This document shows, piece by piece, positions 1,395 through 24,645 of a stretch of DNA of 33,747 nt (positions are counted from its first letter, which is position 1; the number at the start of each line of letters is the position of its first letter). Source of the stretch: Syntrophobacteraceae bacterium (lineage in GTDB: Bacteria > Desulfobacterota > Syntrophobacteria > Syntrophobacterales > Syntrophobacteraceae); NCBI GenBank assembly GCA_007125915.1, contig SLCH01000213.1, positions 1 to 33,747 on the forward strand, written 5' to 3'. Under the pieces are notes generated by a model. The model saw only the letters and a list, made by a program, of their open reading frames with translations. It searched no databases and was not told where the DNA came from. A program made the translations under genes and the position numbers.

Positions 1395-1498
1395 AAACCA
1401 TTCCATGCCACAGTTCCCGGAACACCGGCATCGTTCCCGGGCCACCGCCACCCAGCACTATGCCTCAGCGCAACAAATTAACATGGAGAATGCCCCTC

Positions 1499-2065
1499 AT
1501 GAAAAAATCCTTCGGAGCTAAAACTCTCGCCTATCCAACCCCCGTATGGTGCATCGGATCTTACGATGGAGCAGGCAAGCCCAACATCATGACAGTGGCC
1601 TGGGGAGGAATCTGCTGTTCCAGCCCACCATGCGTGACCATATCCCTGAGAAAAGCCACCTACACCTACAGCAATATCATGGAAAGGGGCGGGTACACCG
1701 TCAACATCCCCTCGGAGAACTTCGTTCGCCACGCGGATTTTTTCGGCACGACTACCGGAAGAGACACAGACAAGTTCACCCATGCGGCATTGACGCCCGT
1801 ACGGGGAAAATTTGTGGACGCACCCTATGTGGACGAATTCCCCATGGTCATTGAGTGCCAATTGATTCACACCTACGAAATCGGTCTGCACACTCAATTC
1901 ATCGGAGAAATTCTGGATGTCAGGGCCGAGGAAACACTCCTCAATGAGAAAGGCTTGCCCGACATGGCCCTGATCCGGCCACTGATATACTCCCCTGAAA
2001 CCCGATACTATTATGGTATTGGAAGCGCTCTTGGGGAAGGCTTTTCCATCGGCAAAACCTTGTGA
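1499..2065 (+). CDS. flavin reductase family protein (FMN-binding split barrel, flavoredoxin-like)
   Basis: ORF 1388..2065; likely start ATG 1499 (MKKSFGAKTLAYPTPVWCIGSYDGAGKPNIMTVAWGGICCSSPPC). Confidence 0.88.
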   Translation: MKKSFGAKTLAYPTPVWCIGSYDGAGKPNIMTVAWGGICCSSPPCVTISLRKATYTYSNIMERGGYTVNIPSENFVRHADFFGTTTGRDTDKFTHAALTPVRGKFVDAPYVDEFPMVIECQLIHTYEIGLHTQFIGEILDVRAEETLLNEKGLPDMALIRPLIYSPETRYYYGIGSALGEGFSIGKTL

Positions 2066-2109
2066 AGACCACAGTCCACTGAAAACTGGTGAAAAAGGAG
2101 GCTAAATCC

Positions 2110-2685
2110 ATGAAAGTGGTTGCAATCAACGGCAGCGCCAGAAAAGAAGGCAACACAGCCAGACTGATAGGAACTGTCCTGCAGGAACTGGAAAAGGAAT
2201 CCATCGAAACGGAAGTGGTGAATCTTTCGGGAAAAGAAATTCGAGGGTGCACGGCCTGCATGAAATGCTGGAAAAACAAGGACGCCAGATGTGCCGCCCA
2301 CAAGGATTTTCTCAACAAATGCCTCGAGAAAATGACTCATGCCGACGGCATCATCCTTGGTTCTCCCACCTATTTCGCCAATGTGAGCACGGAGATGAAA
2401 GCACTCATCGACCGGGCGGGGATGGTGGGTCTGGCCAATGACTTTCTATACCGGCGAAAAGTGGGAGCCGGCGTGGTGGCCGTGAGGCGCGGGGGCGCCA
2501 TTCACGTCTTCAACTCCCTCAACCACTTCTTTTTCATTAACCAGATGGTGGTTCCAGGTTCCATTTACTGGAACATGGGCACGGGCCTTGAAAAGGGAGA
2601 AGTGGAAAAGGACGAGGAGGGACTCAAAACGATGCAGGTTTTGGGGGAAAATATGGCGTGGCTTCTGAAAAAACTGAATGCTTGA
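2110..2685 (+). CDS. NADPH-dependent FMN reductase / iron-sulfur flavoprotein
   Basis: ORF 2089..2685; flavodoxin-like MKVVAINGSARKEGNTARL; compact cysteine motif CTACMKCWKNKDARC (CX2CX2CX7C) as in Isf-type flavoproteins; preceded by AGGAGG. Confidence 0.88.
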   Translation: MKVVAINGSARKEGNTARLIGTVLQELEKESIETEVVNLSGKEIRGCTACMKCWKNKDARCAAHKDFLNKCLEKMTHADGIILGSPTYFANVSTEMKALIDRAGMVGLANDFLYRRKVGAGVVAVRRGGAIHVFNSLNHFFFINQMVVPGSIYWNMGTGLEKGEVEKDEEGLKTMQVLGENMAWLLKKLNA

Positions 2686-2710
2686 AACACGATGGCAGCC
2701 CATGCAAAGG

Positions 2711-2748
2711 GATCACCGGGAGGCCACGGATGTGACCTCACGGTGATC
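2711..2748. other. imperfect inverted repeat between convergent genes
   Basis: GATCACCGGGAGGCCAC GGAT GTGACCTCACGGTGATC: 17-nt arms with two mismatches; no adjacent long T-tract. Confidence 0.5.
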
Positions 2749-2837
2749 GCTGAAAAACTTGGTCCTCCTCCATGAAGCGTTGGTCAGGGCAGTTGCCGAT
2801 CAGTCCCCTTGACGAACCTTTTCAAAAAGGAAAGATC

Positions 2838-3260
2838 TCAGGGAAAAGCCTTCCAAACGATCCTGTCTTCAGCCTCCAGCCACACTTTGCCTTGCTCCAC
2901 ATGACAAAAAGGTCTCCAGGCCTCCTGACCGAGAAAGAAAATGCTGCTCCACATGGCAGCATTCCCATCACCATCTTTCAGTTTGGTGAGCAGGTACTCC
3001 CCCAATCCCGGAAGACCGTTGGGTAAAACAAACTCAGCCAGCACGGGCTTCCCAAAATCCACCGTTTTTTGCGTGATGCTCCAGAGGGTGCCGGTTTCTT
3101 CAAATTCTGAGTTCATCAACCATGCACCCACGATTTCTGCTATGATTTCAATCCATTTTTCATTGGTCAACAGGTTCATGTTGATCTGTACGGCAGGATG
3201 AACGGCCACTGCCGGACGGCGAAGGCCTGGCGAAGCCAGTGTGTCTTGTGATTGTTTCAT
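2838..3260 (-). CDS. hypothetical protein (140 aa)
   Basis: Uninterrupted ORF in an otherwise unoccupied interval; no family recognised. Confidence 0.55.
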   Translation of the reverse strand: MKQSQDTLASPGLRRPAVAVHPAVQINMNLLTNEKWIEIIAEIVGAWLMNSEFEETGTLWSITQKTVDFGKPVLAEFVLPNGLPGLGEYLLTKLKDGDGNAAMWSSIFFLGQEAWRPFCHVEQGKVWLEAEDRIVWKAFP

Positions 3261-3293
3261 GATCGTTCCACTCGACCTGATTTATGGCCAACA

Positions 3294-3319
3294 TCAAAAA
3301 TGGGCACATGGAATGTGCC
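3294..3319 (-). terminator. putative rho-independent terminator of the 589-aa gene
   Basis: Minus strand reads GGCACAT-TCC-ATGTGCC followed by CATTTTTGAT, about 55 nt beyond the stop at 3372. Confidence 0.55.
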
Positions 3320-3371
3320 GCGCTCCACCCAGAAAACTTTCCAATGGCCGCAAACCAACTTTTTTGCCGCC

Positions 3372-5138
3372 TCATTGGGAAAGGCCCAAGTCGCAGACCC
3401 TGCCCGTGCTCCCTTCGCGCAAGGGGGTGAAATATTCCCGGTCAAAGCAGGCCCGCCCCTTGTTGAGAGTTTTGGCCAGAACGGCCACGGTCAAAGCACT
3501 GGCCGAAGGAGCACCTCCGGCCATATGGCTCTTGGCAAGGACCTCATCGGTCAGAAGGGGATTGTCACTTCCCCAGTAACCGATGCAAAAGATGATGTTG
3601 CTGCACAAAAGACCGATTTTTTCAGCACGCCGGATGGAACGCAGATAAGGCACCCCTTCCATCTCCAGCCCTTCTATATTGTATTTTCGCATCAAATATC
3701 TCAAAACCATTTCGTTTTGAATGGCAATTCCCGGCACGGTGAGCATGGGCCCCCCCGTATGGACATCACAATTGACCAGCCCTTCAAAATCTTCTTTCCT
3801 GAGCTGATTGCCATTGGGAAAGTCGTGCACTCCCGTCTCCAGTTCCTGAGGAATGAGGTAGGTGGGAAGCATGATGTCGAATCTGCTGCCGCAAACAATG
3901 CCCGCTTTGCCGATGATGGAGATGCTCTCGATTCCCTTGGAAAAAGCCTCTGCCAGTTCACGCATGATTTCGGTGGCCTGAAGCCCAAAAGCATAATGAA
4001 TGTTGATAATATAGGGGGCCCTCTCCTTGAGCTGAGCCCAATTGTCTATTTTGATGCGCTCGTCCACCCTCTGAGGATCAAGAGCGAAGGTGTCGATGAC
4101 CTGAACATCAATCCCCGTGTTGTGGATGTCGGGAATGAAGCGAATGCCGAATTTCTGCTCATACTCAAGTTTTTCCTGGAACAATTCGGGGTGGGCCTGG
4201 CAGAGCTTGTATAAAGCGTAATGAAGGTTTCCGGGATGATCGAGATCCAGTTCCTGAAGTTCCGGATATTCTTCGCTCATCTCCACGATTCTTTGCTTGT
4301 GAATGCGGGAAAAGTCCGTGAGACAGCTGACCACATTGTGCAAATCACTGGAGATGATGACGATGGGACGGGCTCTGCTCAACTGGCCGCAATGCTCGAG
4401 ATTTTCCCGCCAGAGGCGCGCTTTGGTAGAATAATTGGTCTCTGCGAATTCATTGGCAAATTCAACCTCCAGCTGGTCGAGGTCATTTTGCATGATGTTC
4501 GTGATGAGGTCGAACAGGCCAAAGCGGAGAGAAGCATCCAGGCTCCTCAATTCTTCATATTTGACGCTGAACTTGCCGGCGATCCTGCAAAGAATCTGGT
4601 TTTTTTCTGCAGAATGCCTGTCGTTGCTGAGCCGCTCCACATCTTCGAGGAGCTGGCTGCCCATCAGCAACCGTTTGATCTTGCTGGACTCGATCCCGTA
4701 CATGAGCAGGGATGTGAGGATGTCAAAGACGTCCGTCTTTCCCTCAAGGGCAATGCACTTGAAGTGTCCCTCTCCCATCTCGTAGATGGTTCTCACCCGG
4801 GCACCCTTGGAGCCACTTTCCAGCAGAGTGATGCCGCTCACGGTGGACAGGTTTTCGGAATTTTTCTGAATATAAAAATATCGGGCGCGAGAGATCTCGT
4901 AAGGGAGTCGCTGCAGGGCACACATGAGTGCATTGACATCCACACGCCGGTCTTCGTTGCAGTAGGAGTGAATGCAGGGCTCCATTCGCTTGTATCTCTC
5001 GTAAAGACTGCCCAGAACGATGCTTCCCGAAATCATTCCGTGGCTGACGGTGACACAGAAGTTGGAGAGAGCCTGAAGGATTCTGTGCGCGCGGTATTCG
5101 TCGGTTTTCCACCATTCGTCTGACTTGACGCCTTCCAT
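3372..5138 (-). CDS. DUF6909-like protein with C-terminal nucleoside-phosphorylase-like region
   Basis: ORF 3372..5141; ATG at 5138 with upstream AGGAGG; segments LMCALQRLPYEI and GKTDVFDILTSLLMYGIE resemble the DUF6909 family as I remember it; C-terminal GLEMEGVPYLRS and GKAGIVCGSRFDIMLPTYL resemble PNP/UDP-phosphorylase motifs. Confidence 0.75.
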   Translation of the reverse strand: MEGVKSDEWWKTDEYRAHRILQALSNFCVTVSHGMISGSIVLGSLYERYKRMEPCIHSYCNEDRRVDVNALMCALQRLPYEISRARYFYIQKNSENLSTVSGITLLESGSKGARVRTIYEMGEGHFKCIALEGKTDVFDILTSLLMYGIESSKIKRLLMGSQLLEDVERLSNDRHSAEKNQILCRIAGKFSVKYEELRSLDASLRFGLFDLITNIMQNDLDQLEVEFANEFAETNYSTKARLWRENLEHCGQLSRARPIVIISSDLHNVVSCLTDFSRIHKQRIVEMSEEYPELQELDLDHPGNLHYALYKLCQAHPELFQEKLEYEQKFGIRFIPDIHNTGIDVQVIDTFALDPQRVDERIKIDNWAQLKERAPYIINIHYAFGLQATEIMRELAEAFSKGIESISIIGKAGIVCGSRFDIMLPTYLIPQELETGVHDFPNGNQLRKEDFEGLVNCDVHTGGPMLTVPGIAIQNEMVLRYLMRKYNIEGLEMEGVPYLRSIRRAEKIGLLCSNIIFCIGYWGSDNPLLTDEVLAKSHMAGGAPSASALTVAVLAKTLNKGRACFDREYFTPLREGSTGRVCDLGLSQ

Positions 5139-5597
5139 CACTCCTCCTGCGCTGATGGCCGCTGTAACTCAGTGGGTAAAACCCGCCGGTGAACAAAGGG
5201 GCAATCGGCGAGTCAGCTGTCACCCCATTAAAATAAACTTTTATGATTTCAACGGTCAAGCAAAGCTCACGCCCGGCGGAGAGCTTCCATGGAGTCGATC
5301 CATGAATCATCTCGGACCCTGCCGGACCTGCCAAAAATCTCGTGCCAGCACAATCCCTGGCCCCTTGTGCTCAATGTTACATTTCTGTTACGATGTTGTG
5401 CCTTGTGCTCCGGGCACAGTGAGCACGCCGCCGTTTGCCTGCCATGTTCCAATTTTGGACTACCACATTAGAGAGGAAACTCTTCTGAACATGGCCGATT
5501 CATTTTTTGCGCATGGACCGCCGAAAGATTGGAAACACGCTCTTCACGACCATCTCCATAAATGTTCGTGAACTCATCAATAGAAAAGGTGGGGCAC

Positions 5598-8500
5598 ATG
5601 GACCGCCATCAAGCCAAAAAACGCTTATTTTTTGATCGCAAGGACCGCGAACTGCTGGATATTGTCAACGATGTATTGGGCCATGAGGATCCCCGCAGCC
5701 TGAAAAAACTTCTCATCCCCTACCTGCACCCTCACGGGATCAAGGAAATGGCTGCTTCCACGGGTTTGCGCATCGCTTACGCAGTGGTCAAACTGTTTCG
5801 CTCGCTGGAAAGAGACAATGCTGAGGACCGCATCCACACCTTGCGCGCCCTGCGGGACGAGGTGTTTTCGAGCCCCGGCGGTGAATTGCGTAAAAACAGA
5901 GCCCGAGTGCTCCTTCAGATCATGAAGGATCTTGTCCGTGAAGAAGACGAAGAGATCAAACTGCAGCTGGCCCGGGACTTCAGAGAAGCCGCCACGGGCA
6001 AACCAAGGGCCATCGCACGCCAGCTTCTGAAATACCACCTGGTGGAGATGCCCGAAGAATGGAATCAGATTGCTTTTGACGATCATGTCCACGACGCCAA
6101 CACCAAGGGCCGAAAGTCGGCAACACATCTGATCATGGACGCATGGATCAAGGGGATTCGGCGGCTGAGGGTGATTTATTACAATTATGTGCATCCCGAT
6201 GTGGCTCAAGAACTGACGGAAGCAGCCGAGATCATGGACGTGAATGTTCGCGTGGGCATTGAGTATTGTGCCCGTTTCAGGGGGCGCTACGTCCGTTTCA
6301 TCTGGACGCCGAGAGGATTCAACGACGCCAAAGACTTTGTGGAATTCCTCAACGAACCCAAAGTCAGCGAGTTCATGGCTGAAGGCCGTCTCATTTCAGA
6401 GTATCAGCAGAAATACACTTTTTCCGTGCTGGAAGCTGTCAATAACATCCACAGGCATACCATCAACAAAGAATTCGGAATAAACTTCCCCGCCCTGAGC
6501 AAATCCGAACTGCTGACCCTGGTGGGCTCAGGGCAAACTTCCCTTCATCACCTGGCCAAACTCATCCATGATCACCTTCAACGATTGTTTCACCAAAAGC
6601 TCATCGACCTTCGAGAATGCTGCAATCAAGGCTGTCAACACGAGCTGCAGGAGGCTCAGCAACTCGTGGAGCAAATGAACGCCCTTGACATTGAGGCTAT
6701 CTCCGATCGGTACCTGCGTCCCGACAGGAATCCGGGCATACACAATCCTTTCATACCAAAGAAAGACGACGGAGCACCCCCTCTGTTGCAACTCACACCT
6801 TCCGCCCTGCTGCAACGCCTCGAAAAACTCCATGTGGGTTACCGCATCACCCTCAATCTGAGCGGCCTCGAGGCCCCGGATGTTCTCGAACTCCTCTATG
6901 ACTGTGAAGGCGACATCACTCGATTGGAGACCTTCAATTTCAAGGACGAAATATACGGCAACTGCACCGACTCACCTCGCATTCGAGAGCTTCAGGCCGC
7001 CATCAACTCGGGCAACGCCGTACAGCTGAAACGCCAGGTCAGAAACATTCTGCAAGCACTGGGACATCACCAGAAAGATCAGAAGGAAAAACTCTCCGTC
7101 ATTCTCGACAACCTCAATGCGCTGCGCGATCATTACCGCAATACGGAGATCAAATCCAGAATCGGGACCGATTCAACAGGCGGCTCATCGAGGGTGCCCG
7201 GCATGGGCCTAGTGGTGGTGGACACTCTGCCCAAGAAATGCCGCAGGCAGATGAACCGGGTCGTCAACTTTCCTGCAAACATACCTTTGCGCATTCACGT
7301 TTTTCCCCGGCGCACATACTTCAGGGATCCCTGGAAGAGAGGCCGAGAAGGCTCATCAAGATCCGTCTTCCCGGGAGATATCAAATCCGATTCGGGAACG
7401 CCCATTTTCCCCAGGTACGAGCAGGACTGGATGGTGGGTGAATATGAAACCGTTGCCCCAAAGCACAGTAACCTGCGTGCACTGGGGGGAGTCTCAACTG
7501 AGAGCAGACTGCAGCTGGCATGTCCTGAAAAATCCCGCAAGGACACTACCCCCCACTTGAGGTATGTGAACACAAACATCAAGAATTGCTTGAAGATTTT
7601 GCTGGGCTTCGGACCCGCCTTTGCCACCTTTGCCCTGACCAAAGACTGGTGGTTGCTCGCCTACATGGGGGCATTCATCTGGTTCGGCATCACGGGTTTG
7701 CGCAACATCATCCAATCCGTGCTGGGAGCGGGGGGGTTACGCCGCTCTCCCCTTATGCGCTGGACGGAATATATCAGCTGGAACAGACTCGCCGACTCCC
7801 TCATGTACACGGGCTTTTCCGTGCCCCTGCTGGACTACCTGGTAAAATCCCTGTTCCTGGAACAGCAAATGGACGTGACGGTAGAAACCAGTCCTCTTGC
7901 CCTCTACACCACCATGGCCGTCGTCAACGGCATCTACCTCACGAGCCACAACCTCTTCAGGGGTCTGCCCAAAACCGCAGCCTTCGGCAACCTGTTTCGC
8001 ACAGTTCTCTCCATTCCCGTGGCTCTCATGCTGAATTTCATCATCGGAGCCCTTTTGAGCGCAGCCGGAGTCCCCGCCGTTGCCGCCGCTCTGCAGAAGT
8101 GGGCCGCCATCATCTCCAAGCTGGCGTCGGACACTGTGGCCGCCTTTATCGAAGGCTATGCAGACCGGGGGGTCAACTTCAGAGAGCGCTACCTGGATTA
8201 TGAAGCAAAAATCACACAGGTTTTTGACAGCTACTCCAAATTGGAACTTCTGCATCCTCAGGAAGAGATTCTGAGCGTGCTGGAATCGTCCGAGCGACTG
8301 GTGTGCGCCGTATCCCGCAAGGAGGAGAGCCTGAACCTGGCTGTCATCGTCAACGCCCTGGACCTGATGTATTTCTGGATGTACCAGCCCAGAGCCAGGC
8401 ACGTTTTACAACGTATCATGCGGCAAATGAATGCGGAGGAACGCAAGGTTTTTCTGCTTTCCCAGCAGGTGCTGCAGAGGGAACGGGAAATCTCCCAGCT

Positions 8501-8639
8501 CTTTCTCGATGGACTGGTGGGCAAGAATTTCTCCAGAGCCCTGGCGTTCTATCTCGCCCGCTGGCGGGACTATCTGCATGATGTGCATCGAATGGCCTCC
8601 CGCCTTGCCATGACAGACACGACACTGCCGGTGCGTTGA
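5598..8639 (+). CDS. large uncharacterised protein: degenerate PHP-like region plus C-terminal multi-TM region
   Basis: ORF 5562..8639 (1025 aa); start possibly 5598 (MDRHQAKKRL); FDDHVHDANTKGRKSATH and VNVRVGIEY resemble PHP motifs; hydrophobic helices in the last about 350 aa. Confidence 0.85.
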   Translation: MDRHQAKKRLFFDRKDRELLDIVNDVLGHEDPRSLKKLLIPYLHPHGIKEMAASTGLRIAYAVVKLFRSLERDNAEDRIHTLRALRDEVFSSPGGELRKNRARVLLQIMKDLVREEDEEIKLQLARDFREAATGKPRAIARQLLKYHLVEMPEEWNQIAFDDHVHDANTKGRKSATHLIMDAWIKGIRRLRVIYYNYVHPDVAQELTEAAEIMDVNVRVGIEYCARFRGRYVRFIWTPRGFNDAKDFVEFLNEPKVSEFMAEGRLISEYQQKYTFSVLEAVNNIHRHTINKEFGINFPALSKSELLTLVGSGQTSLHHLAKLIHDHLQRLFHQKLIDLRECCNQGCQHELQEAQQLVEQMNALDIEAISDRYLRPDRNPGIHNPFIPKKDDGAPPLLQLTPSALLQRLEKLHVGYRITLNLSGLEAPDVLELLYDCEGDITRLETFNFKDEIYGNCTDSPRIRELQAAINSGNAVQLKRQVRNILQALGHHQKDQKEKLSVILDNLNALRDHYRNTEIKSRIGTDSTGGSSRVPGMGLVVVDTLPKKCRRQMNRVVNFPANIPLRIHVFPRRTYFRDPWKRGREGSSRSVFPGDIKSDSGTPIFPRYEQDWMVGEYETVAPKHSNLRALGGVSTESRLQLACPEKSRKDTTPHLRYVNTNIKNCLKILLGFGPAFATFALTKDWWLLAYMGAFIWFGITGLRNIIQSVLGAGGLRRSPLMRWTEYISWNRLADSLMYTGFSVPLLDYLVKSLFLEQQMDVTVETSPLALYTTMAVVNGIYLTSHNLFRGLPKTAAFGNLFRTVLSIPVALMLNFIIGALLSAAGVPAVAAALQKWAAIISKLASDTVAAFIEGYADRGVNFRERYLDYEAKITQVFDSYSKLELLHPQEEILSVLESSERLVCAVSRKEESLNLAVIVNALDLMYFWMYQPRARHVLQRIMRQMNAEERKVFLLSQQVLQREREISQLFLDGLVGKNFSRALAFYLARWRDYLHDVHRMASRLAMTDTTLPVR

Positions 8640-10802: not shown

Positions 10803-11945
10803 TCATGACAGCCGGTTTCGGTAGTCCTCATAGCCAAAGGTTCTGATGATGTCGATCTGGCCATGTGGCCGAAGAATGGCGATGGAGGGAAGCCCGACAC
10901 CGTTGAAGGTGTTGTTTTTGACCATGGTGTAATGAGCCATGTCGAGGAAAATGATTTTAGAACCGACTTCCAGGGGATTCGAAAAGGAATAGTCTCCGAT
11001 CACATCCCCCGCCAGGCAGGTCATGCCGCCCAGCCGATAGGTATGGTTCCGTTCTCCCGGAAGCCCGGCTCCCACGATGGAGGGTCTGTAGGGCATCTCA
11101 AGCACATCGGGCATGTGCGCTGCTGCAGAAGTGTCCAGAATGGCGATGTCCATGTCATTGTGAATCACGTCCAGAACAGTAGTGACCAGAACCCCCGTGT
11201 TGAGAGCGATGGCCTCACCGGGCTCCAAGAACACTTCCTCCACAGTGTACCGTTCCCTGAAACGGACTATGAGTTCCACGAGCAGGCTCACATCGTAATC
11301 ACGGCGCGTGATGTGGTGGCCTCCGCCGAAGTTGACCCAGCTCATTCGAGGAATGAACTCTCCGAATCGCCTTTCAAAAGCAACCAGCGTGCGCGCCAGT
11401 GAATCGGCATTGAGCTCACACAGGTTATGAAAATGAAGCCCGCTGATCCCTTCAAGGCTGTCCTCCACAAAATTGGCGCGGGTCACACCCAGCCGGGAAA
11501 ACGGCCCGCAGGGATCATAGATGGGCACAGCAACTTCCGAATGCTCGGGATTGACCCGCATGCCGCAGGCAACTTTTTTGGAAGCCCTCAGAACTCTGTC
11601 TTTGAAACGATTCCACTGGGAAAAGGAATTGAAAATGATGTGGTCGCTGTGGGCCACCAGATCGTCGAACTCGGAATCCTTGTAGGCGGGGGCAAAAAGA
11701 TGCACCTCCCTGCCAAACTCTTCAAAACCCAGGCGCGCCTCATGAAGGGAGCTGGCCGCCACCCCATGGAGGGTTCGGGCAATGAGCGGGAAAAGGCTGA
11801 ACATGGCAAAGCCCTTCAAGGCCATGAGGATTTTGCAGCCCGATTCCCTTTGAACCCTGTCCAGCACCTGAAGGTTCTGTTCCAGGGCCACCTCATCCAC
11901 CACATAGCAGGGGGTTGGAATTTCTTTCAAATTCAATGTCTTCAT
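10803..11945 (-). CDS. nspC: carboxynorspermidine decarboxylase
   Basis: ORF 10803..12035 with likely start ATG 11945 (MKTLNLKEIPTPCYVVDEVALEQNLQVLDRVQRESGCKILMALKGFAMF: PLP alanine-racemase-fold decarboxylase with LALKxF-type lysine); WVNFGGGHHITR, FLEPGEA. Confidence 0.93.
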   Translation of the reverse strand: MKTLNLKEIPTPCYVVDEVALEQNLQVLDRVQRESGCKILMALKGFAMFSLFPLIARTLHGVAASSLHEARLGFEEFGREVHLFAPAYKDSEFDDLVAHSDHIIFNSFSQWNRFKDRVLRASKKVACGMRVNPEHSEVAVPIYDPCGPFSRLGVTRANFVEDSLEGISGLHFHNLCELNADSLARTLVAFERRFGEFIPRMSWVNFGGGHHITRRDYDVSLLVELIVRFRERYTVEEVFLEPGEAIALNTGVLVTTVLDVIHNDMDIAILDTSAAAHMPDVLEMPYRPSIVGAGLPGERNHTYRLGGMTCLAGDVIGDYSFSNPLEVGSKIIFLDMAHYTMVKNNTFNGVGLPSIAILRPHGQIDIIRTFGYEDYRNRLS

Positions 11946-12000
11946 GGAAGTACGGCCAGCTCCTGTGTGCATTGAATGTGTCCGCTCAAACTCAACGGAA

Positions 12001-13179
12001 TCAGTCCAGAAATCTCTCGTGCCAGGGCAACCCATGATGGTTCAAGGCTTCCATGAAAGGATCGGGATCGAACTCTTCCACGTTGAAAACCCCCTCTCCC
12101 CTCCACTTGCCCTGGAGCATGAGCATGGCACCGATCATGGCCGGAACACCCGTGGTGTAGGAAATCGCCTGGGCTTTGACCTCCCGGTAGCACTGAGCAT
12201 GATCGCAAATGTTGTAGACGAAGTATTTCCTGACCCGCCCGTCCTTGACTCCCTCGATGACGCATCCGATGCAGGTCTTCCCCTTGTAGTTCTCAGCAAG
12301 GGAGGAGGGGTCGGGGAGAAGGGACTTGAGAAACTTCAGGGGAACCACCTGCGTTCCCTCATAATCCACCGGATCGATGCGCGTCATGCCCACATTCTGC
12401 AAAACCCTGAGGTGGGTGAGGTATTCCTGAGAAAAGGTCATCCAAAAGCGGATGCGTTTCACTCCCGGAATATTCTTGGCCAGCGATTCCAGCTCTTCAT
12501 GATACATGAGGTACATTTCACGGGGTCCGATTTCGGGAAAATCAAAGGTCCTGTGAACCGCCATGGGATCCGTTTCAATCCACTGACCATTTTCATAATA
12601 CTTTCCCCTGGCGGTGATTTCCCGAATGTTGATTTCGGGGTTGAAGTTGGTGGCAAAGGGATGCCCGTGATCTCCCGCATTGCAATCCACGATGTCGATG
12701 GTGTGAATCTCATCGAAATGATGCTTGAGCGCATGGGCACAAAAGATATTGGTGACTCCAGGATCAAAACCGCAGCCCAGCAGGGCCATGAGGTTCTTTT
12801 CCTTAAACCTGTCGTGGTAGTCCCACTGCCATTTGTAACAAAACTTCGCTTCGTGAGGCGGTTCGTAGTTGGCCGTGTCGAGATAGTCCACCCCCGTCTC
12901 CAGGCATGCATCCATGATGGTCAGGTCCTGATAGGGCAGGGCAACATTGATCACAAGCTCAGGAGAAAAGGACTTCATCAGGGCCGCCAGCTCGGATGTG
13001 TTGTCCGCATCCACCTGTGCGGTCTCTATGGGACGGCTCAATTGGCTCCTGATGCGCTCGCATTTTTCAATTGTACGGCTGGCCAGAAGAATTTCCGAGA
13101 AGACTTCAGGAACCTTTGCACACTTGTGGGTCACCACTCCTCCGACTCCTCCGGCACCAATGATCATCACTCTACTCAT
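12001..13179 (-). CDS. carboxynorspermidine/carboxyspermidine dehydrogenase (saccharopine dehydrogenase family)
   Basis: ORF 12001..13227, start ATG 13179; Rossmann MIIGAGGVGGVVTHKCA; directly upstream of nspC on the same strand. Confidence 0.92.
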   Translation of the reverse strand: MSRVMIIGAGGVGGVVTHKCAKVPEVFSEILLASRTIEKCERIRSQLSRPIETAQVDADNTSELAALMKSFSPELVINVALPYQDLTIMDACLETGVDYLDTANYEPPHEAKFCYKWQWDYHDRFKEKNLMALLGCGFDPGVTNIFCAHALKHHFDEIHTIDIVDCNAGDHGHPFATNFNPEINIREITARGKYYENGQWIETDPMAVHRTFDFPEIGPREMYLMYHEELESLAKNIPGVKRIRFWMTFSQEYLTHLRVLQNVGMTRIDPVDYEGTQVVPLKFLKSLLPDPSSLAENYKGKTCIGCVIEGVKDGRVRKYFVYNICDHAQCYREVKAQAISYTTGVPAMIGAMLMLQGKWRGEGVFNVEEFDPDPFMEALNHHGLPWHERFLD

Positions 13180-13996: not shown

Positions 13997-14803
13997 ATGA
14001 ATGAATTCCGAGTCACGAGCTATAACGAACTGCAGGAGGCCCTTTTCGAGGATTCCTGGAATGCGGACCTGGGGCGCTTTCGCTCCCGGCATGCATTTCG
14101 GGGTCTATCAGATGCTCAGTATCGCCTGGAAACCACCCTGATCCGGCTGGGAGGCGCTTACGCCCAACTGGAAAAGCACCTTCTCAGGAATTTTAAGAAG
14201 TACGCACACCGAGACATGATACAGGGAGATTCTGTCTGGCATTGGCTGTCTGTGGCTCAACACTATGGACTTCCCACCCGGCTGCTCGACTGGACCTACT
14301 CACCCTTTGTGGCCATGCATTTTGCCACTGCCAACATTGACAAGATCAACATGGACGGCACCATATGGGCCGTCAACTACCTTAAAACCCACAACCTCCT
14401 ACCCGACATCCTTCGTTCCAAGCTGAATGAGGAAGGAGCCAACGTGCTCACTGTGGAAATGCTTTCGGAATCCGTCCGGTCTCTGGAAGAACTGGCCGGC
14501 CTGAGCAGGGAAACCTTTGTTGTGTTCCTGGAACCGCCTTCCATTGACGATCGCATCGTGAACCAGTTCGCCCTCTGCTCCATCATGTCGGAACCCAGGG
14601 CCATTTTTGACGACTGGCTGGAGGGGCATCCTGATGTGTGGCGTAAAATCATCATTCCTCATGAGCTCAAGTGGGAAATTCGAGATAAGCTGGATCAGGG
14701 CAACATCACGGAAAGGGTTCTATTCCCGGGTCTGGATGGCCTCACCCGCTGGCTCAAGAGGCACTACAGTCCCAGAACTCCTCCGTTGAAAGGGGGCCGC
14801 TAA
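13997..14803 (+). CDS. FRG domain-containing protein
   Basis: RHAFRGLSDAQYRLETTLIRL and HWLSVAQHYGLPTRLLDWTYSPFVAMHFAT are characteristic of the FRG domain. Confidence 0.92.
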   Translation: MNEFRVTSYNELQEALFEDSWNADLGRFRSRHAFRGLSDAQYRLETTLIRLGGAYAQLEKHLLRNFKKYAHRDMIQGDSVWHWLSVAQHYGLPTRLLDWTYSPFVAMHFATANIDKINMDGTIWAVNYLKTHNLLPDILRSKLNEEGANVLTVEMLSESVRSLEELAGLSRETFVVFLEPPSIDDRIVNQFALCSIMSEPRAIFDDWLEGHPDVWRKIIIPHELKWEIRDKLDQGNITERVLFPGLDGLTRWLKRHYSPRTPPLKGGR

Positions 14804-18101: not shown

Positions 18102-18572
18102 TCAAAACGAGACAGAGATGATGCGGTAAACACGAATTCCCGCGGGAGTGTATACGGTGACCTCTTCCCCCTCGAACCGTCCCATGAGAGACTGTCCCAC
18201 GGGTGATTGCACGGATAATTTTCCCACGGAGACATTGGACTCAAAAGGTCCCACCAGTTCATAATGAAAGGTCTCGTCCGTGTCCACGTTTTTGATTTCC
18301 GCAATGGTTCCAAAACCCACTTGCCGCAGGGCAAACTTTCTGCCCACAAACACCTCACACTGGAGAAGCTTCTCTTCCAGTTCCTGGATGCGCCGCATGA
18401 GCACCACGTGTTGCTCTCTGGCCAGCAAATAGTGTTGATTGTCCACTTTCACGCCATAAGAGCGCGCCTCCTGCAGTTCCTCGATGACCTGTGGACGCAC
18501 CACGCCCCTCAAATGTGCCAGCTCTCTCAAGAGCCTTCGGTAACCGGTGCGGGTGATGGGAACTTTTTCCAT
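18102..18572 (-). CDS. GreA/GreB-family transcript factor with altered acidic tip
   Basis: MEKVPITRTGYRRLLRELAHLRGVVRPQVIEELQEARSYGVKVDNQHYLLAREQH; C-terminal FKBP-like SVQSPVGQSLMGRFEGEEVTVYTPAGIRVYRIISV. Confidence 0.9.
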   Translation of the reverse strand: MEKVPITRTGYRRLLRELAHLRGVVRPQVIEELQEARSYGVKVDNQHYLLAREQHVVLMRRIQELEEKLLQCEVFVGRKFALRQVGFGTIAEIKNVDTDETFHYELVGPFESNVSVGKLSVQSPVGQSLMGRFEGEEVTVYTPAGIRVYRIISVSF

Positions 18573-18584
18573 ATTCAAAAACAA

Positions 18585-19139
18585 TCAAGAGAAAAAATCT
18601 GAAGGAATTTTTCCTCTGTCCTTCAGGAGTTGAAACCAGGCAAGACCGATGACGGTTTTTCCGTCGCGGATGCGTCCCTCGAGCATGAGATCGTGGGCTT
18701 CATGGAGGGAGAGTGTCTCCACCGATGCGATCTCATCCATGTCCTGGGCATCGGACAAGCGTTTCAGTCCTGAGGCGGCATAAATTCGAATCACCTCGTT
18801 GGAGTAGCCGATGGCGGGAAAATAGCTGAAAAGGTGAATGACCCTGGCCGGCTCATATCCTGTTTCTTCCAGAAGTTCCCTTCGAGCGCAAATCTCCAGA
18901 TCTTCTCCCGGATCCGCCTTACCCGCTGGAATTTCAAGGGTATCCTGACCAATGGCGTAGCGCCATTGGCGGACCATGAGGATCCTCTCCTCATCCAGAA
19001 AAGGAATCACGGCAGCCGCCTCGGGGTGATCTATTTTCATCCGTTCCGTGGTCCTTCCCGTGCGAAGTTTGACCGTGTCGAGTTGTGCCGTAAAGTGATT
19101 TGCGAAGATCATGCTTAAAGTTCGAATTTTTTCTTCCAT
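18585..19139 (-). CDS. NUDIX hydrolase (ADP-ribose pyrophosphatase-like)
   Basis: Nudix box GKADPGEDLEICARRELLEETGY; ATG 19139 chosen as start; the ORF stays open upstream to 19466. Confidence 0.9.
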   Translation of the reverse strand: MEEKIRTLSMIFANHFTAQLDTVKLRTGRTTERMKIDHPEAAAVIPFLDEERILMVRQWRYAIGQDTLEIPAGKADPGEDLEICARRELLEETGYEPARVIHLFSYFPAIGYSNEVIRIYAASGLKRLSDAQDMDEIASVETLSLHEAHDLMLEGRIRDGKTVIGLAWFQLLKDRGKIPSDFFS

Positions 19140-19360
19140 AATAACGAGATTCACCTTTCCGAGAGCCTCAATAAGAGAAAGATCCAAACGCGATCCTGTA
19201 TTTCTTGTCACCATGGATCGAGAAATGCCCAAAGCTCGAGCAAAGAGCCGCAAAGAACGATCATCGGAATCCCGTGATCCCGGAGGCTGCAGGGGCAAGC
19301 CTTCACTTCTTTGAAGCGCAGAGGCCGCACCCCTTAAGCTTTCATTACATTTTACTCCGA

Positions 19361-19410
19361 TGCCCAATGAGATAAAAGGTGTGTGACCCCGCTTTTTGCC
19401 ATTGCCGGCA
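19361..19410. repeat. 50-nt imperfect palindrome, possible dispersed REP-like element
   Basis: TGCCCAATGagatAAAAG...CTTTTTGCCATTGccGGCA. Confidence 0.35.
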
Positions 19411-19740
19411 CACGCAGGACTGCGCGGCATCGTGCCCGGTACCTTTTGCCTGCATCCCTGAATCAACCCTTAGGGGCAGCCTGATGTGGAACCAGCGATA
19501 AAGGGACTCTGAGGAAAACTGGGGGTGTGAAAAGTCTGTTTCGCAAGAGTGGAAATGGGGAAGGCTCCATTTTGCAGAGGAATGAGGAGGCCAGGGAACT
19601 TTCATGCTCCAAAGGAGTTCACTGGAAAAAAACACAGAGGGGTACGCAAATATTTCGGGGAAACTCACGGCCACACTCAACTGGTCGTCCCGCGGCCCTT
19701 TTCTAAGATTCTGTTGAGATACGTGGGCAAGTTCGGCGTC

Positions 19741-22749: not shown

Positions 22750-24645
22750 TCACTCGGTGATGCAAACTTGTGCCGGCTCGTCAAAGCGGAAAGAAATTTC
22801 GTAGATGCCCTCTTCAAGGTGACTGTGCACCACATAACCCACTTTGTGAAAAACGGCGAGCATATTTCTGTTGGATGCAAGCACATAGGCCGTAAAACCA
22901 GTTATTTGTTTGCTTTTTGCAATCTCACAAAGGTAGTGCAGCATGAAGCTGGCAATGCCCATGCGCTGCCATTGTGTGCGCACTGCAAAGTCCACTTCGG
23001 CAATGTTCGTCTTTTGATCCAGGATGTATCGACCCAAAGCAATGATTTTTTCGTTGCCGATTTCACCCGTGACCCCCACGATGGCCATTTCATGCTCATA
23101 GTCCACATTGCACATGGCCTGCGTGTTTCTATGAGGAAAGACTTTCATGGCTGATAAAAAACGATAATAGATGTCCTGATCAGGCAGGGAGTAAAAAAAC
23201 TCCTGGAGAGCCCTTTCATCGGTGGGTTTGATAGGTCGGAAGAAGATCCGGACATTTCCGGGAAAAATCTGGTGTGCTTCCCATTGTCCCGGATAGAGAG
23301 GTTCGTAGATAGGGGGCAGAATCTGGTCCTGGTAAACATAGCGCAGGTCCTTCGCCTCCTGAAGCAGGCGCTCCCGGAATTTTGGATGAGCGATGCTGAT
23401 GAGGGCCAGAGCTCTCTCGCGAATGGTCTTTCCATGCAGGTAGGCAATGCCGAATTCGGTGACCACATAGCGCACCGTGCTTCGGGAACTCACCACCCCT
23501 GCACCGTGGGTGAGATGGGACACGATGCGCGAGCGGCGCCCATCGGAACTGGCCGATGGCATGACGATGATGGTTTTGCCCCTTGGAGCCCGCGCGGCAC
23601 CGTGCATGAAGTCCACATAGCCACCGATACCACTGTAGACCTGGTGTCCAATGGAGTCTGCACAGACCTGACCCGTCAAGTCGATTTCCAGGGCAGAATT
23701 TATGGTGACCATTTGTTCGTGCTGACTGATCAAACGACGGGAGTTCACGTAGTCAATGGGATAGAACTCCACTTCGGGGTTGTTGTGCACGAACCTGTAG
23801 AGCTCATCGGTCCCCACGCAGGCACTCGCAACGATCTTTCCCGTATGAACAGTCTTGCGCTTGCCCGTGATGACCCCTTTTTTCACGAGGAACAGGTGCG
23901 CGTCGGTGATGATCTCCGAATGAATGCCCAGGTCTTTTTTGTCATCGAGGTAGCGAAGCACGGAGTTGGTGATCCGGCCAATCCCTATCTGAATGGTCGA
24001 ACCATCTTCCACCAAATGAGACACGTAGCGGGCTATCCTTTCGGCCACCGCACTTCTTTCCCTGAAAGTGTTCTCCAGCAGGGGCTCAGGATATTCAACA
24101 AAATAGTCGATGTCCTTCACGTGAACGAAAGAATCCCCAAAAGTTCTGGGCATGTGGGGATTGATCTGTGCGATGGTGACCCGGGCCACCTCCAGGGCAG
24201 CCTTGCAGGAATCAACATTGATCCCCAGGGAACAGTACCCGTGTTTATCGGGAGGAGAAACCTGGATAAGGGCCACATCGATTCCCCAGCTTCCCTCATA
24301 GCGAAACAAGGATGGAATGGAGGAAAAATAAATGGGAATGTAGTCCGCGTAGCCCAAATTGACCGCCTTGCGCATTTGAGGACCAACAAAAAAAGTCTTC
24401 AATCTGCAGTGCTTTTCCAGGTCCTGCCAATCTTCCGGCAGGGCTCCAATGGACAAACTCTGAACGATTTCAAGGTCTTTGTAGTTTGGAAGAATCCTGA
24501 GCAGAGAACTGAGGAGGTGCTGCGGCTCTCCACAACCACCTCCCACAAAGATGCGCTGCCCATCCTGTATCTGGGAATCGAATACAGAGGCTGCATCAAG
24601 TTTATGGCCCTCGTAATACTGCTTCCAATGGGCGAAGTAACTCAT
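22750..24645 (-). CDS. acetyl-CoA hydrolase/transferase family protein fused to C-terminal GNAT acetyltransferase domain
   Basis: N-terminal IGIGRITNSVLRYL, GIGGYVDFMHGAARAPRGKTIIVMPS, VTEFGIAYLHGKTIRERALALI (CoA-transferase family); C-terminal VDFAVRTQWQRMGIASFMLHYLCEIAKSKQITGFTAYVLASNRNMLAVFHKVGY (GNAT). Confidence 0.93.
   Translation of the reverse strand: MSYFAHWKQYYEGHKLDAASVFDSQIQDGQRIFVGGGCGEPQHLLSSLLRILPNYKDLEIVQSLSIGALPEDWQDLEKHCRLKTFFVGPQMRKAVNLGYADYIPIYFSSIPSLFRYEGSWGIDVALIQVSPPDKHGYCSLGINVDSCKAALEVARVTIAQINPHMPRTFGDSFVHVKDIDYFVEYPEPLLENTFRERSAVAERIARYVSHLVEDGSTIQIGIGRITNSVLRYLDDKKDLGIHSEIITDAHLFLVKKGVITGKRKTVHTGKIVASACVGTDELYRFVHNNPEVEFYPIDYVNSRRLISQHEQMVTINSALEIDLTGQVCADSIGHQVYSGIGGYVDFMHGAARAPRGKTIIVMPSASSDGRRSRIVSHLTHGAGVVSSRSTVRYVVTEFGIAYLHGKTIRERALALISIAHPKFRERLLQEAKDLRYVYQDQILPPIYEPLYPGQWEAHQIFPGNVRIFFRPIKPTDERALQEFFYSLPDQDIYYRFLSAMKVFPHRNTQAMCNVDYEHEMAIVGVTGEIGNEKIIALGRYILDQKTNIAEVDFAVRTQWQRMGIASFMLHYLCEIAKSKQITGFTAYVLASNRNMLAVFHKVGYVVHSHLEEGIYEISFRFDEPAQVCITE

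Follow-up and report, generated by a model that had tools for sequence, protein, structure and literature searches.

One gene on the forward strand of the window (the whole stretch of DNA analysed here, 33,747 nucleotides of a Syntrophobacteraceae genome) encoded a protein in which a PHP barrel, stripped of most of its metal ligands, was joined to a conserved membrane bundle and a helical C-terminal domain. This overall architecture and its ancestry were well supported. On the reading that we tentatively prefer, the barrel has been repurposed: it would face the cytoplasm, anchored to the membrane, and would bind a phosphate ester as part of a sensor or regulator rather than act as a canonical three-metal hydrolase.

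Residues are numbered from the ATG at 5562 (residue 1). The open reading frame and the main domains were as follows:

5562..8639, forward strand: open reading frame of 1025 codons (reading frame intact from the ATG at 5562; likely translation start at 5598)
5604..6032, forward strand: N-terminal all-helical domain, residues 15-157 (AlphaFold2 model and conserved residues)
6054..7241, forward strand: PHP-fold domain, approximately residues 165-560, with a large helical insert (Foldseek, hhalign and NCBIfam matches of family members)
7332..7400, forward strand: disordered variable linker, residues 591-613, pLDDT below 50 (AlphaFold2 model)
7572..8165, forward strand: membrane bundle of five transmembrane helices and a probable sixth (AlphaFold2, hydropathy and loop charges)
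8268..8624, forward strand: C-terminal soluble helical domain, residues 903-1021 (AlphaFold2 models)

A sequence-only reading of this DNA had assigned 1025 amino acids to a start at 5598; the reading frame was real, but length and start did not belong together, as the ATG at 5598 (residue 13 of the frame) gives 1013 amino acids and the ATG at 5562 gives 1025. To judge from the sequence, 5598 is the likelier translation start, because the ribosome-binding-like GGTGGGG lies immediately 5' of it and conservation in the family alignment sets in about 10 residues later. Differences from the nearest relative (85% amino acid identity) fell at codon positions 1, 2 and 3 in 113, 75 and 377 cases, and 302 of the differing codons were synonymous vs. 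159 non-synonymous; this codon-position bias and synonymous excess therefore identified the frame as a gene under purifying selection.

The full-length AlphaFold2 model, built from 89 sequences, reached a pLDDT of 86.4 and a pTM of 0.85. The helical N-terminus anticipated by the sequence-only reading appeared as helices over residues 15-157, with G59-I60, R70, R90, N112 and R115 conserved. The barrel was followed by a variable stretch containing beta structure and the disordered linker; residues 560-670, previously described as basic and of low similarity, did carry a net charge of +9 and were variable, but W623 was invariant, so the region was not wholly unconserved. The transmembrane helices and soluble C-terminus expected in the last 350 or so residues were likewise recovered by AlphaFold2 and hydropathy as a bundle (helices 671-693, 697-723, 740-769, 778-800 and 804-834, with TM6 probably formed by the beginning of the long helix 840-897) and then a helical domain; modelled alone, the membrane and C-terminal part had a pLDDT of 83.9. 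The PHP part may face the cytoplasm: the loop charges point weakly that way, and no signal peptide is obvious.

The soluble half descends, with good support, from the PHP branch of RNase AM (Rnm, YciV/TrpH; a PHP family 5'-3' exoribonuclease of E. coli) and the 3',5'-nucleotide bisphosphatases. When the full-length model was compared with the PDB by Foldseek, three matches fell under E 0.001 and all were PHP proteins: 3e0f (7.6e-6) and 3o0f (2.3e-5), both BAD_1165, and 9etk (RNase AM, 1.1e-4); the next were 2yb1 (Cv1693, 1.9e-3) and then 7ug9 (RNase AM PHP domain). A profile of residues 150-580 aligned to 31 RNase AM homologues by hhalign with a probability of 92 and an E-value of 6.7e-7 (6.6e-6 after removal of the most divergent relative, L131), vs. 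0.14 or worse for 15 column shuffles and one reversal. Among 42 members, weak matches below E 1 were found to the NCBIfam models for 3',5'-nucleoside bisphosphatase (11 members) and RNase RNM (8 members); the best E-values across members for NF047791 and NF041577 were 0.0031 and 0.00037, with scores far under the curated cut-offs, and the window protein itself matched neither in the NCBIfam search. Single-protein searches of Pfam, NCBIfam, PHROGs, PADLOC and PDB sequences gave nothing meaningful, and a profile search of the PDB gave chance matches only. The fold was a distorted (beta/alpha)7 barrel with its strands in PHP order (HxH, [T]DH, GxE, AHP, SDxH), the motifs themselves being only partly kept, and a helical insertion domain lay between the GxE and AHP strands, as in the RNase AM/bisphosphatase branch, with insert 256-423 aligning to that of RNase AM. 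The PHP-like domain proposed earlier was thus present, and no characterised family was found to cover the whole length.

The following elements were located within the barrel:

6078..6116, forward strand: motif I, DDHVHDANTKGRK, residues 173-185, HxH kept and RNase AM D20 replaced by Lys182 (hhalign, alignment)
6171..6188, forward strand: degenerate motif II, VIYYNY, residues 204-209, in place of RNase AM TDHD (hhalign; gapless 31-residue spacing from HxH)
6255..6263, forward strand: GIE strand, residues 232-234, E234 corresponding to RNase AM E72 (hhalign)
6327..6830, forward strand: helical insert, residues 256-423, at the RNase AM/Cv1693 insertion-domain site (AlphaFold2, hhalign)
6852..6863, forward strand: LNLS, residues 431-434, at the AHP motif position, ligand His replaced by Leu433 (hhalign)
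6924..6947, forward strand: LETFNFKD, residues 455-462, E456 corresponding to conserved RNase AM E225 (hhalign, alignment)
7164..7178, forward strand: GTDST, residues 535-539, at the GSDFH position, His replaced by Thr539 and Asp kept in most relatives (hhalign, alignment)

RNase AM binds three Mn ions, through H13/E72/D255 (alpha), E72/H83/H198 (beta) and D20/H45/H257 (gamma) (PMC9410882). Conservation was counted in an 89-row family alignment. The alpha trio was kept, as H175 (84/89), E234 (79/89) and D537 (75/89), whereas the gamma ligands D20, H45 and H257 had become K182 (88/89), Y207 (87/89) and T539 (85/89), and the beta ligands H83 and H198 had become Q, R or K at 245 (R245 in the window protein) and L433 (88/89). 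Five of the eight distinct metal ligands were therefore replaced, and counterparts of H13, E72 and D255 alone were left of the three-metal site. Motif I and the GIE strand had been recognised from the letters (H177 was present in 88 of the 89 rows), as had the loss of T-D-H, for which the equal 31-residue spacing from HxH placed D44-H45 gaplessly at Y206-Y207. Besides the alpha trio, E225 and the insert residue H143 had counterparts in E456 and H330, which were near-invariant together with K182; D173 was present in 89/89, and Q325, S327 and H330 in 88/89 each, with N459, K461 and D462 near-invariant in LETFNFKD. For the RNase AM 5'-phosphate pocket, R141 aligned to L328 and the alignment of R107/R110 was uncertain. 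The divergent relative L131 kept more ancestral motifs: FNHP, IELMN and a Glu instead of Lys at position 182. This gene (1425-5060, genome G212) lay directly after a glycerophosphodiester phosphodiesterase (GDPD) gene and retained the NHP motif of PHP proteins, which the main family has lost.

From these residues, canonical three-metal chemistry is very unlikely in the family. Most metal ligands having been lost, the barrel has probably taken on a new purpose, with a phosphorylated compound as its ligand. In the proposed mechanism the three-metal site would have been dismantled and rebuilt, with the invariant K182 at the gamma-metal Asp site, the private beta and gamma ligands gone, and E456 and His330 of the insert remaining; a phosphate ester (a nucleotide, an RNA 5' end or a lipid head group) would be held between barrel and insert, and the bound state might be relayed to the membrane bundle and C-terminal helical domain, making the protein a sensor or regulator. 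As a counterpoint, the conserved H177, D173 and E456 could be catalytic residues.

The alpha trio (H175, E234, D537) was whole in 84 of 118 sequences, the window protein included, so a one-metal catalyst, and a one-metal site in most though not all members, is possible. The family might accordingly have kept hydrolase activity at a reduced site, in which one metal sits on H175/E234/D537, K182 and nearby basic residues replace the lost metals, and a membrane-associated phosphate ester (a phospholipid or lipid-linked intermediate) is cleaved. Some neighbours would suit such an enzyme: in 5 of 168 loci the adjacent gene, at most 330 bp away and in the same orientation, encoded a GDPD (3 downstream, 2 upstream), and in 6 loci, some of them closely related, a PHO4 phosphate transporter lay no more than 3 kb away; this is a hint, no more, of a link to phosphate or phospholipid metabolism. 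However, most loci had neither neighbour, the family tree required at least five independent breaks of the trio while the remaining protein stayed conserved, and in RNase AM the D20A, E72A and D255/H257A changes each disrupt activity (PMC9410882), with D20 and H257 both changed in the family. We consider an active enzyme doubtful, and less probable than a sensor or regulator.

The membrane part looks like more than an anchor because it is highly conserved. R714, W740, N789, N797 and R800 were invariant, and with N715, Q718, K853 and D857 they made up a set of invariant or near-invariant polar and charged residues inside the membrane helices or at their ends, as might be expected of a transporter or channel with the PHP and other helical domains as its cytosolic regulatory parts. 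Against this, the membrane/C-terminal part had no fold match in the PDB (best Foldseek E 0.55), the window protein matched no Pfam transporter family, and one of 42 members gave a weak ABC_membrane match (E 0.0079); a transporter or channel is accordingly improbable. Finally, that the PHP resemblance is chance or generic TIM-barrel likeness can be practically dismissed: although no family member tested matched Pfam PHP and identity to RNase AM was about 13%, Foldseek, the controlled profile comparison and NCBIfam pointed to the same branch, the strand motifs stood in PHP order, and L131 retained RNase AM-like FNHP and IELMN.

Full-length relatives occurred in hundreds of Desulfobacterota genomes, widespread in sulfate-reducing-type bacteria, and shared a single architecture aligning from about residue 20 to 1010. 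In one scan, GTDB species genomes yielded 346 matching stretches, nearly all labelled deltaproteobacterial or Desulfobacterota, of which 80 were kept. The gene was found in 12 of 37 good genomes of the window's neighbourhood, in 31 of 244 genomes of a phylum sample and, within the class (Desulfobacterota) to which one distant member belongs, in 77 of 134 good genomes. Two records outside the phylum, one "Alphaproteobacteria" and one CSSED10-310, may be mis-binned or mislabelled; the gene was absent from 149 and 7 further genomes of their respective phyla. No relatives were present in plasmids, phages or viral contigs, and a mobile-element origin was rejected. Several genomes carried two copies, including a convergent full-length pair about 27 bp apart (L030, 27-6928). 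In the paralogue pairs of loci L158-L165 (G129, G161, G215 and G239) one copy was HED-intact and the other carried H177Y, Y207E and D537S/N; with one copy more degenerate, such pairs make the question of enzyme or sensor testable. No literature was found on a membrane PHP protein or on DUF6909, and neither Pfam, NCBIfam, PHROGs nor PADLOC held a model of its own for this large, strongly conserved family of about 1000-residue proteins, in agreement with the earlier impression of an undescribed family. Put more guardedly still, these proteins may be integral membrane receptors of a kind not described before, present in more than half of the good genomes sampled from one Desulfobacterota class. 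In such receptors the dismantled phosphatase barrel of PHP type would bind the ligand on the cytosolic side and be coupled to a membrane fold absent from solved structures, making the protein a candidate pseudoenzyme receptor of sulfate-reducing and syntrophic bacteria.

Neighbours varied by lineage; none was common to the family, and a universal operon partner was rejected. The divergently oriented gene of the window (3372-5141, reverse strand), given as 3372-5138 in the sequence-only reading and suggested there for a co-occurrence check, was a DUF6909 member (Pfam E 6.8e-73), but this adjacency was seen only here and at the locus of one sister species (L002), and a conserved partnership was rejected. 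RNase AM-like genes coexisted with the family gene in G091, G094, G106, G123, G126 and G129, so the family gene is not a simple RNase AM replacement. Elsewhere in the window lay, at 22750-24645 (reverse strand), a fusion of a butyryl-CoA:acetate type CoA-transferase domain (residues 15-435) with a Pat-like GNAT acetyltransferase domain (466-605); an FRG-domain protein at 13997-14803 (forward strand) that also matched the PADLOC candidate defence model PDC-S15 (E 5e-43); a carboxynorspermidine decarboxylase at 10803-12035 (reverse strand; TIGR01047, E 1.2e-157); and, at 18585-19466 (reverse strand), a Nudix hydrolase domain (residues 137-282) preceded by about 130 additional N-terminal residues, adjoining a GreA-like gene (18102-18584).

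Among known PHP proteins, RNase AM shared with the window protein the barrel, the order of strand motifs, a helical insert at the equal site with a conserved His (H143; H330 here), and counterparts of the alpha ligands H13/E72/D255 and of E225. It differed in its metal site, where the family lacks five of the eight distinct ligands and has Lys in place of D20, and in size: RNase AM has 293 amino acids, whereas the family adds about 165 N-terminal residues, a longer insert, a six-helix membrane bundle and a C-terminal domain. Cv1693 (2yb1; a 3',5'-nucleotide bisphosphate phosphatase) and BAD_1165 (3e0f/3o0f) were top structural matches, each a barrel with a helical insertion domain, and of the NCBIfam models the bisphosphatase one was matched by the largest number of family members; both proteins, however, are known from solved structures of about 285 residues, carry the annotation metal-dependent phosphoesterase/amidohydrolase and lack a membrane part. 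The PHP domains of the bacterial DNA polymerases PolC and DnaE, some of which are catalytically degenerate, shared the PHP fold, but their fold matches were weaker (E 0.04 or worse) and their fusion partner is a polymerase instead of a membrane domain.
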